Positions 49,838 to 53,199 of a DNA stretch of 64,000 nucleotides are shown one piece after another (the stretch's first letter is position 1; the number at the start of each line of letters is the position of its first letter). Where the stretch lies: the NCBI RefSeq assembly GCF_900114765.1, contig NZ_FOUD01000003.1:62001-126000 (forward strand), written 5' to 3'. This DNA is from Halopseudomonas pachastrellae (GTDB lineage Bacteria > Pseudomonadota > Gammaproteobacteria > Pseudomonadales > Pseudomonadaceae). The notes under the pieces are model-generated. The model did no database searches and was not told the origin of the DNA. It was given only the letters and a program-made list of their open reading frames with translations. Position numbers and translations under genes: made by a program.

Positions 49838-49962
49838 GCGCCTGTGCGCCTGCTATCCAGACTGGCGTTATGCACTAGGCATGCCCCCCCCACACGTCAT
49901 CCTCGCGTAGGCGAGGTTCCATGCGGCTCAGCGGTCACTTCGGCGCTGTCTGATCATCCGCT

Positions 49963-50177
49963 TTTCGCCTTCACGGCGAGCCAAAGGGGGCCGCTTGCCC
50001 GGCCCCCCTTGGCGATCCCCCCGGGCACCCGACTACGCGGCCCTTCGGGTTCGCTGCGTTGCTCTATTTATCGGGGAGTCATAAAACTCGTCGCTGCGCT
50101 CCTCAGACATCCTATGACTCTTTTTCCCGATAAATCTGCGCTACTCGCCCGCGTAAACGGGGATTGGGTCCGTGCAT
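49963..50177 (+). repeat. 215-bp structured direct repeat, copy 1
   Basis: Same length and order as 51538-51752. It contains a series of hairpins: TCGCC/GGCGA, a long CCAA-G-rich/C-rich-TTGG arm, CCC-TTC-GGG, and a central variable stem ATTTATCGGG/CCCGATAAAT with inner AGTCAT/ATGACT. The rest is nearly identical between copies. It sits in the gap after the oxidoreductase gene. No protein-coding frame looks convincing. Confidence 0.8.
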
Positions 50178-50342
50178 GCTTCACGTCGGACTGACTCGCC
50201 TCTCCACGGCATGCCGTGGCCGTGGGGCCTGTGACGTTCTGCGCAGACCATCCCTCCCAGGTTGCCCGCGCACCATCACGGTGCTAGTCTCACCAAACCG
50301 TCAAACGGCAACCTTTCGTTTTTACCTGTCCAGAGTGACCGC

Positions 50343-50492
50343 ATGTCCACTGCCCAGACCACCGCTGTTGTAAACCGCCCCGCGCTTGCCGGTGTGGTTG
50401 CGCGTGTGCAGGCTGCCGTGGCCTGCCTGCCGGTCACCCCTCCTGGCGTAGCCATCGTGGCTGCAGTGGCTTCACCGCCACCGGCGCACTGA
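50343..50492 (+). CDS. Small ORF / possible leader peptide before the EamA transporter
   Basis: 49 residues, Ala/Val-rich, with P-V-T-P-P-G in the middle and S-P-P-P-A-H at the end. Proline runs such as these can slow ribosomes. It stops 81 bp before the transporter start, with an RBS-covering hairpin in between. No clear ribosome-binding site of its own was seen. It may be a regulatory upstream ORF or a chance frame. Confidence 0.4.
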   Translation: MSTAQTTAVVNRPALAGVVARVQAAVACLPVTPPGVAIVAAVASPPPAH

Positions 50493-50550
50493 TCTCACTA
50501 CCCCTTTTCTGATTTCTGTTCTCCCTGACTGGCGTGATGCCGTGGGGCGA

Positions 50551-50568
50551 ACCTGTGTCCTGACAGGT
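50551..50568 (+). promoter_or_regulatory. Hairpin covering the EamA gene ribosome-binding site
   Basis: ACCTGT pairs with ACAGGT around a 6-base loop. The second arm includes most of the AGGTGA ribosome-binding site for the ATG at 50574, so translation may be limited unless the hairpin opens. Confidence 0.45.
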
Positions 50569-50573
50569 GACAT

Positions 50574-51428
50574 ATGTTTATTCAACGTTTGAACTGGGCC
50601 GCCATTGGCCCGACTGCGCTGTTCGTGCTGCTCTGGAGCGCCGGCGCGATCTTCTCCAAATGGGGGCTGGAACACGCCTCCGCCTTTGCCTTTCTGCTGC
50701 TGCGCTTTGTACTCGCCTGCGCCGCCCTCGGGTTGCTGGCGCTCACCCGGCGCCGCTGGTTGCCGGCGCGCGGTACCCGCAAGCAAGTAGCGCTGGTCGG
50801 GGTGCTGCTGACCGGCGGCTACACCATCTTCTACCTGCTCTCGCTGGACGCCGGGCTCACGCCCGGGGTGCTGGCAACGGTGCTGGGCGTGCAGCCGATC
50901 CTTACCCTGATGCTGGTCGAACGCCGCGCCAACCTGTTGCGGGTATTGGGTTTGCTGCTGGCGCTCGGAGGCCTGACGCTGGTGGTGCTCGACAGCTTGC
51001 TGGCGGCGCGTTTTTCGCTGCTGGGCATCGCCCTGTCGCTGGCGGCTTTGCTGTGCATCACCCTGGGTTCTATCTTCCAGAAGGGGATTCAACAATCACC
51101 CATGGACGTACTACCGCTGCAATACGCCATCGGCCTGCTGATGTGCGCGGTGGTTGCGCCCTTTCAGCCGTTTGAGGTGGAGTGGAGCGTCGGTTTTATC
51201 GTGCCGCTGTTGTACATGGGCGTATTGATCTCGGTCGGCGCGACCCTGTTGCTGTACCGGCTGATCCGCATGGGCAATCTGGTCAACGTCACTAGCCTGT
51301 TCTACTTGATGCCCGGCTGCACCGCGCTGCTGGATTTCCTGTTCCTGGGGAATCGCATGGCGGCGTTGAGTCTGTTGGGGATGGGGGCGATTGTGGTGGG
51401 GTTGGTGTTGGTGTTCAGGCGGAAGTGA
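50574..51428 (+). CDS. EamA/DMT-superfamily transporter
   Basis: 284 residues, ten hydrophobic helices in two EamA repeats. It opens with A-L-F-V-L-L-W-S-A-G-A-I-F-S-K-W-G-L and has the second-repeat G-S-I-F-Q-K-G region. Members export amino acids or other metabolites; the substrate is not evident. The gene and its small upstream ORF lie exactly between the two 215-bp repeats. Confidence 0.88.
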   Translation: MFIQRLNWAAIGPTALFVLLWSAGAIFSKWGLEHASAFAFLLLRFVLACAALGLLALTRRRWLPARGTRKQVALVGVLLTGGYTIFYLLSLDAGLTPGVLATVLGVQPILTLMLVERRANLLRVLGLLLALGGLTLVVLDSLLAARFSLLGIALSLAALLCITLGSIFQKGIQQSPMDVLPLQYAIGLLMCAVVAPFQPFEVEWSVGFIVPLLYMGVLISVGATLLLYRLIRMGNLVNVTSLFYLMPGCTALLDFLFLGNRMAALSLLGMGAIVVGLVLVFRRK

Positions 51429-51537
51429 CGTTTCAGCACAGCTGACACATCGCTTCCGTAGGGGCATGGCATGCCGTGCCCGTGCTGTCGGCAACCCCGT
51501 GCTGCAGTTAGAAATCTGCATTGCTCTTTAACCCGTC

Positions 51538-51752
51538 TTTCGCCTTCACGGCGAGCCAAGGGGGGCCGCTTGCCCGGCCCCCCTTGGCGATCCCCCCGGG
51601 CACCCGACTACGCGGCCCTTCGGGTTCGCTGCGTTGCTCGGTCTGGCGGGGAGCCGTAAAACTCGGCGCTTCGCGCCTCAAACATCCTACGGCTCTTTTT
51701 CCCGCCAGCCCTGCGCTACTCGCCCGCGTAAACGGGGATTGGGCCCGTGCAT
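51538..51752 (+). repeat. 215-bp structured direct repeat, copy 2
   Basis: Copy of 49963-50177 in the same orientation. The central stem differs in sequence but keeps pairing: CTGGCGGG/CCCGCCAG with inner AGCCGT/ACGGCT. The stretch from 51753 to 52042 holds no gene that I can support; it contains ATTAATCTGACCCCGTTTCT, a phrase resembling REP-associated sequences. Confidence 0.8.
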
Positions 51753-52042
51753 TCTGCTTTTCATATGTAACTCTTATAACTGATAGCTCTTTGCAAGCCC
51801 TAAATACCGACAGTGGACCAAGGTTGGCAGCGAAAAAAAGAAATTGGAAAGCTGGGGCAGTTGAACATTAACGTCGCAAATATTAATCTGACCCCGTTTC
51901 TTATAACTCGATCCATGTTTTCGGTAACTTATAGGGCTCTAGATAGGGTCTAGTTTGTGCGCAAATAATTTGGTTCGGATGAAAATTAATTGCGCAGAAA
52001 TTTTCAGCCGTCCCGGCTTATTTCCGAAAAAATTTTACTGAA

Positions 52043-52815: not shown

Positions 52816-53122
52816 GTGGAATTTCCATTTTTCAAATTCTAGCTAACTAGACGTTCAGCATTTCAAACTAAGCTATTCGACGAGCGTAGATATAGTTTAT
52901 AGCAGTTGCCACATTATCAACGTTACCAGATTATCGACTGCATTGGCTTCCGGCACGCTCGTGTTCTCAATTTGCGAGCAGACGTAGACTGTTATTTCAT
53001 CATGCCGACGCCTAGCGCCTAGTGAGCGCGGCAATGAAGGTATGCCGCTACGAGGGATGCGATAGATAGTTGCGGCTGCCGATGGTAGTAATACTTGCCC
53101 CCAACGCATTCCATAGTGATAG

Positions 53123-53171
53123 CTTCCCGCTTCCCGCTTCCCGCTTCCCGCTTCCCGCTTCCCGCTTCCCG
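53123..53171. repeat. Seven tandem copies of CTTCCCG
   Basis: A perfect 7 x 7-bp tandem array followed by the variant CTTGACG, ending about 30 bp before the liu operator. Copy number is likely variable through slippage. The rest of the 52816-53199 gap holds nothing else I can identify. Confidence 0.85.
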
Positions 53172-53199
53172 CTTGACGCACCAGCGTTCACTGGCTTAC

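Follow-up and report, generated by a model that had tools for sequence, protein, structure and literature searches.

Two similar palindromic units lie on either side of a transporter gene in the window, a stretch of 64,000 nucleotides from Halopseudomonas pachastrellae. An earlier note, made from the letters of this DNA, had observed that the base changes between the two units are matched across their central stem, and had taken this covariation to mean that the fold is under selection, in RNA or in single-stranded DNA. The locus thus raises the question of what kind of element these units are, which nucleic acid folds, and what their covariation signifies.

The repeat pair flanking the transporter gene was confirmed, with the sequence as quoted in the earlier note. 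A repeat search returned one pair of 223 nt (49958-50180 and 51533-51755), 90% identical and 1575 nt apart. The units themselves, W1 (49955-50182) and W2 (51530-51757), are direct copies on the same strand, each a single unit. Their central stems differ by six pairs changed on both sides (W1/W2): four in the lower stem (A-T/G-C, T-A/C-G, A-T/G-C and T-A/G-C) and two in the upper stem (T-A/C-G and A-T/G-C). The statement that each change is matched was slightly too strong, as three positions changed on one side only: alignment position 43/140 is T-A in W1 and T.C in W2, position 41/142 is T.C in W1 and G-C in W2, and the tip pair 95/107 is T.C in W1 versus G-C in W2. RNA folding was better than that of shuffled sequence (z -2.78 for one copy and -4.13 for the other), and DNA folding of W1 and W2 also surpassed shuffles. 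Open frames of 116 aa run through both units, and no Pfam model matched them. At W1 and W2, Rfam yielded nothing at gathering level, and relaxing the cutoff to E = 5 brought no match either; ten other, distant loci of the element were also without a match at gathering level. Elsewhere in the window, Rfam matched the Pseudomonas sRNA P9 (RF00624; 29709-29782, minus strand), and a reverse frame at 52897-53181 (minus strand) opens with SGKREAG-like tandem units, which suggests a short tandem DNA repeat.

The order of the locus is alcohol dehydrogenase, W1, a small ORF, the EamA gene and W2. The earlier note had suggested that the direct repeats form a unit bracketing EamA as cargo. A composite mobile unit or integron-like cassette of this kind would account for the bracketing itself, for the sequence upstream of EamA, which differs in genomes G008 and G023, and for the second, broken EamA gene of G001. 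However, both sites are occupied in four other genomes (G010, G011, G017 and G018; G010 has two elements at the first site), and G006 and G013 carry the genes of the locus but no element, the distance between the genes being 383 rather than 720 bp as measured from BLAST ends. In G002, the W1 site is an assembly gap. Moreover, copies elsewhere adjoin unrelated genes. W1 and W2 are therefore separate old insertions rather than parts of a cassette, and we consider the composite unit very improbable. No gene recurred as a neighbour of the element, apart from those at orthologous loci and reading frames within the element itself. The orientation bias of the upstream gene was weak (same/opposite: 21/14 in the source genome, G000, 19/9 in G001 and 12/8 in G008), and no clear replication-strand bias was seen in hand counts of leading:lagging copies (16:8 and 14:15). 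The small ORF upstream of EamA (50343-50492, plus strand) comprises 49 codons, is Pro/Ala-rich and could encode a leader peptide. It is nearly identical in G001, G008, G011 and G023, and a different small Pro/Ala-rich ORF occupies the same place in the element-free G006.

Many further copies of the element were found, as the earlier note had anticipated. BLAST returned 46 matches in the source genome, a number that counts some copies in several pieces, and a covariance model returned 38, W1 and W2 among them. Ten of the 37 genomes of the genus, the source included, carry the family; the others had no match at E 0.001. One of the ten, G035, has two copies and is probably contaminated, since the contig that carries them (L318, at G035:C7) is identical over 18,320 bp to sequence of G018 (L319), a genome assigned to a different species. 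The remaining nine genomes contain 13-38 copies each. Under strict filters that lose weak matches, the family was present in one of 19 genera and 10 of 198 genomes sampled from the Pseudomonadaceae, all in the source genus, and in 29 of 272 genera and 34 of 369 genomes sampled from the Gammaproteobacteria (source included). A word-pattern scan of named genomes returned 87 stretches; because the pattern was built from words of few relatives, these say nothing on frequency. Among the 80 listed, about 60 were from Stenotrophomonas (with [Pseudomonas] hibiscicola) and 13 from Silvimonas, the rest being from Methylophaga, Luteimonas, Arenicellales and Desulfosarcina. The element also occurs in Betaproteobacteria such as Variovorax. 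Such a patchy distribution across genus, family and class suggests that the element entered the genus horizontally and then multiplied there. A search of plasmids and phages with the window copy gave no match. A Stenotrophomonas copy matched no phage and seven plasmid records, six of them over about 42-54 nt of hairpin B only. Within the paper collection searched, the words of the element led to no paper describing the family, which is widespread and apparently unnamed.

The element folds as a junction, composed of an outer helix P1, a hairpin P2 and a large hairpin P3 that stands between two CTGCGNTNCTCG-like boxes (Table 1). Across genera, the anatomy runs from end hairpin A through hairpin B, P2, the left box TGCGNTNCTC and P3 to the right box TGCGNTNCTCG; P3 has a bulge on its 3' arm and an apex word like GAACTCGCTNCGCTCARACA. 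The two boxes are direct repeats of each other; parsing of a copy required both, such that their presence among parsed copies is not a result. Hairpin B is GC-rich in the source genome and AT-rich, like ACTTTCTTTG..CAAAGAAAGT, in many copies from other genera; its word was also found in Caballeronia and Ilyobacter records that have no recognisable core. Single units predominate in the source genome. Inverted pairs, with their 3' ends facing, occur in many genomes, including G017, Stenotrophomonas and Variovorax. In two G017 pairs, the motif of end hairpin A is present at both outer ends, and one half has the GC-rich hairpin B and the other the AT-rich one, which ties the two versions together. 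In the source genome, L361 (G000:C36:63383) is a shortened paired form whose two sides differ in hairpin B, one version being AT-rich and the other GC-rich.

Table 1. Positions of the parts of W1 and W2, and of the gene between them, in the window
Feature	Position	Strand	Basis
W1 end hairpin A (TTTCGCC..GGCGAG)	49961..49980	+	sequence
W1 hairpin B, GC-rich version	49980..50013	+	sequence, cross-genus comparison
W1 P1 5' strand CCCGACTACGCGG	50028..50040	+	pairing within vs between genomes; DNA fold
W1 P2 hairpin, apex C-TTC-G	50041..50049	+	
W1 left box CTGCGTTGCTC	50054..50064	+	
W1 P3, central variable hairpin; 5-nt bulge on 3' arm	50066..50135	+	
W1 P3 apex C-TGC-G; bottom strand C-GCA-G (GNA triloop)	50094..50098	-	
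W1 right box CTGCGCTACTCG	50136..50147	+	
W1 P1 3' strand CCGCGTAAACGGG	50149..50161	+	pairing within vs between genomes; DNA fold
W2 end hairpin A	51536..51555	+	sequence
W2 hairpin B, perfect 14-bp arms	51555..51588	+	repeat search
W2 P1 5' strand	51603..51615	+	
W2 P2 hairpin	51616..51624	+	
W2 left box CTGCGTTGCTC	51629..51639	+	
W2 P3, stem allele differing from W1	51641..51710	+	
W2 right box CTGCGCTACTCG	51711..51722	+	
W2 P1 3' strand	51724..51736	+	
EamA-type transporter gene (name from the earlier note), outside the element, between W1 and W2	50574..51428	+	

To evaluate the fold, we applied a hand-written structure to 34 copies from the source genome. Overall, 93.2% of 1258 cells paired. 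Cells changed on both sides numbered 136, versus 51 in shuffles, and dropped to 3-12 when the partner was slid by one to three columns; the 34 copies are related, so the 136 cells do not represent 136 events. The 5' hairpin as first written (columns 11-35) hardly varies, and a better, competing pairing is P1, a helix between the stretch on the 5' side of P2 and the 3' end of the element. The 133 rows of the alignment correspond to 119 copies once duplicates and unparsed rows are left out. Among 62 copies from outside the genus, 25 of which came from a word-pattern search that presupposes the P3 apex and the right box, complementarity of the P3 arms was 24.0 within a copy and 11.0 between genomes (p 8e-38), and that of the P1 strands was 10.8 and 8.7, respectively (p 6e-6). 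DNA folding of W1 gave the same junction on both strands. Overall, pairing far exceeds that of mismatched controls and the shape of the element is conserved across distant genomes, which bears out the description of a multi-hairpin palindromic element with a conserved fold.

We also compared copies at orthologous positions in G008, a complete genome, and in G000 and G001, which are drafts in which assembly errors are possible. Both flanks were shared by 30 pairs, of which 27 were parsed and three were not. In these 27 pairs, the flanks were 90.2% identical and P3 84.9%, versus 81.9% for P3 in random pairs between these genomes (p 0.06); 11 of the 27 still had a P3 identity of at least 89%. The words adjoining P3 were 97.7% and 100% identical in orthologous pairs and 96.7% and 99.6% identical in random pairs. 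Being equally alike in both, these words have been homogenised, and homogenisation by itself can account for their likeness. In examples from orthologous loci, drawn from a set in which 4 of 19 pairs were unparsed, both arms, the upper and lower stem and the tip had been replaced together. Among 92 distinct copies, the lower stem and the tip assort freely (p 0.11), and the upper stem shows partial linkage to each of them. Within the genus, covariation thus reflects in large part the movement of ready-made stems. Because stems are exchanged whole between copies, the matched changes between W1 and W2 do not by themselves show selection. What stands of the earlier interpretation is the conserved shape and its pairing; what does not is the argument from W1 and W2. 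Gene conversion, which the earlier note had named as an explanation that would count against it, applies in part, as both P3 arms are often exchanged together at orthologous loci. A 14-nt insert, GTGGCCGGCGAGGT, was also observed at the base of the left arm of P3 in some copies (L014, L030, L033, L036 and L037), and others (L010, L018 and L035) carry its reverse complement, in full or for the most part, higher in that arm.

The mismatches and apices of the hairpins were used to compare the two strands. In the P3 arms of the 119 copies, 1997 cells were Watson-Crick pairs and the isolated mismatches comprised 10 G.T, 45 A.C and 93 others. Counted over distinct P3 arm pairs, A.C and G.T mismatches numbered 24 and 5 in the genus, and 20 and 5 elsewhere. 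An A.C mismatch on the top strand corresponds to a G.T wobble on its complement, which leaves the bottom strand the less disturbed of the two. According to RNAfold, the G-U share was 1.4% outside the genus and 3.5% within it for the top strand, 7.3% and 10.1%, respectively, for the bottom strand, and 13.6% in 12 tRNAs. The apex of P3 was C-TNC-G in 78 of 94 copies obtained without selection for it, the 25 pattern-found copies being left out because their pattern imposes the apex. These comprised 53 of 57 copies in the genus, 17 of 27 model-found copies outside it (the other 10 having a different apex pattern) and 8 of 10 neighbouring units outside; shuffled tips had C-TNC-G in 7-11%. All four bases were seen at N. 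On the bottom strand, the apex reads C-GNA-G, mostly GCGNAGC (41 + 16 + 8 of 78). P2 has C-TNCG-G in 79 of 119 copies. UNCG is a classic RNA tetraloop, and P2 alone decides nothing, as its bottom strand is C-GNA-G yet its top strand is a UNCG tetraloop. GNA loops closed by G-C pairs are described as extraordinarily stable DNA mini-hairpins (PMC4686876), and extrusion of the promoter hairpins of phage N4 is described as depending on this closing pair and these loop bases (PMC4496689). Together, the rarity of top-strand wobble and the GNA-type apex of P3 point to a DNA hairpin of the bottom strand rather than to an RNA. The alternative of RNA or single-stranded DNA posed by the earlier note is thus narrowed in favour of DNA on the opposite strand, albeit not beyond doubt.

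Comparison of orthologous sites also revealed turnover of the element. The sites of W1 and W2 are filled or empty within the genus, and a Stenotrophomonas locus present in 60 of 61 genomes proved variable in the 30 that were read. In 14 of these, both units were present, and in every case one had stem type A and the other type B; the order was A-B in nine and B-A in five, with three of each among complete genomes. Seven had one unit and nine had none: L328, L343 and L347 retained the outer hairpin only, L340 was partial, L352 had another nested palindrome and four had nothing. The end motif is present at both ends of paired forms of the element, and neither a target-site duplication nor a clean empty site was resolved.

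The source genome further contains a separate palindromic repeat of ~268 nt, with 13 copies over 70% of its length (L031, L032, L033, L036, L037 and L353-L360), ends like AGGGAAGCACTGATTAATTC and two inner hairpins. It lies inside hairpin B of five copies of the element, in both orientations; three orthologous copies of the element from other genomes lack it. Pairs of the 268-nt repeat in opposite orientation are 90-96% identical when one is inverted, versus 63-65% otherwise. We considered the five resulting giant-hairpin copies as site-specific insertions and rejected this, as the repeat has its own ends and other sites. The nested copies share sequence that free ones lack, and the nested repeat and the element may therefore have spread as one composite.

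How W1 and W2 came to be as they are is best explained, tentatively and at little less than an even chance, as copies of non-autonomous palindromic insertions that work as folded DNA and between which exchange is ongoing. The bottom strand would extrude or fold as a DNA hairpin, stabilised by its C-GNA-G apices, and a trans-acting enzyme would recognise the boxes together with the apex and the bulge on one arm, rather than the letters of the stem. If so, the stem would be free to be any pairing sequence. The element would have entered the genus horizontally, multiplied, and now be mostly inherited in place, with copies trading P3 hairpins by gene conversion between paralogues or by a dedicated exchange, and pairs flipping in place. 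Ranked next is the rather unlikely reading that the copies are old, inert insertions with no present function or enzyme, in which arm-to-arm template switching perfects the stems and gene conversion homogenises the words. Dispersed or long inverted repeats can exchange stems and invert in place unaided, the words are as alike in random as in orthologous pairs, and the sites of W1 and W2 are old. However, the boxes, the bulge on one arm and, less strictly, the C-TNC-G apex with its free middle base recur across genera, whereas neutral palindromes would be expected to lose them. The restriction of the family to a single sampled genus of the Pseudomonadaceae, with 13-38 copies per genome there, also speaks against this reading. 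A multicopy family of structured non-coding RNA, the fold being that of the transcript, is unlikely. It would fit the covariation across copies, the C(UNCG)G of P2 and a bottom-strand G-U share not far below that of tRNAs, but top-strand wobble is nearly absent, the usual P3 apex GCTNCGC, which on the bottom strand is GCGNAGC, gives no closed UNCG tetraloop on the top strand, Rfam has no match and the gene context is inconsistent.

Two further readings concern the machinery. The P3 DNA hairpin might itself be the exchangeable unit of a class of hairpin-cassette elements, recognised by its GNA apex, bulge and CTGCGNTNCTCG boxes, with a dedicated recombinase acting on extruded single strands to swap stems of any pairing sequence between fixed chromosomal docking sites; we regard this as unlikely. 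Also unlikely is mobilisation as a REPIN-like element by a Y1 (HUH) transposase from the RAYT/TnpA_REP group. Inverted pairs do occur, the bottom strand has GTAG 5' of P3 in all 57 copies of the genus, and in Stenotrophomonas the ends sometimes lie directly beside REP-like hairpins; a strict pattern counts 6 of 36 such cases, and inspection by eye gives more, with many orthologous loci among them. In E. coli REPs, TnpA_REP is described as needing GTAG and a bulge, with a non-specific structural role for the upper stem (PMC8266576). By contrast, GTAG is present in only 2 of 62 copies outside the genus (2 of 37 once the 25 copies whose search pattern rules out GTAG are set aside), and REPs, at 20-40 bp, are far shorter than the units. 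A search with PF01797 first seemed to show one RAYT subtype only in element-bearing genomes. A protein search overturned this, finding RAYT homologues, many at 40-52% identity, also in most element-free genomes. The RAYT copy of the source genome carries a stop, and 11 regions around RAYT genes contained no element better than E 0.9. This lead failed, and no mobilising enzyme was found for the folded-DNA insertions that we favour.

The family provides a natural case in which strong covariation arises at least partly from the exchange of cassettes and speaks for a structure in DNA and not in RNA, which is a caution for the covariation-based discovery of structured RNAs. The element is widespread yet has no match in Rfam 15. 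If the bottom-strand GNA reading is true, stable DNA hairpins may be poised for extrusion at many sites in the chromosome.

Several known systems resemble the element in part. Integron attC sites are bottom-strand folded DNA with variable paired stems, conserved boxes and bulges; the element has such stems, boxes and bulges and probably also folds as bottom-strand DNA. However, it lies in no visible cassette array, its neighbours are mutually unrelated, and attC boxes differ from its own. Like REP, BIME and REPIN sequences with their TnpA_REP, it consists of dispersed, non-coding intergenic palindromes, partly in inverted pairs, that follow a single-stranded DNA hairpin logic, but it is a multi-hairpin unit of ~215 nt with a junction, GTAG is not retained outside the genus and the link to RAYT is unsupported. 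MITEs such as ERIC/RU and NEMIS are likewise small, non-autonomous repeats, and the paired form of the element has inverted end motifs; unlike them, the element has conserved internal words and an apex, and neither a transposase sharing its ends nor target duplication was found. The BRE of Betaproteobacteria, compared here by description only (PMC3110155), is about 90 bp, GC-rich, mostly intergenic and variable in copy number; P3 with its boxes also measures ~90 bp, whereas BRE is often tandem. The R178, R200, R6 and R26 families of P. fluorescens, also compared by description only (PMC2718517), are Pseudomonas intergenic repeats in a similar size range, whereas the model of the element finds nothing in the 18 other genera sampled from the Pseudomonadaceae. 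Finally, the promoter hairpins of phage N4 are much smaller and serve a phage polymerase, but they are DNA hairpins, extruded by supercoiling and described as requiring a C-G closing pair and G..A loop bases (PMC4496689).
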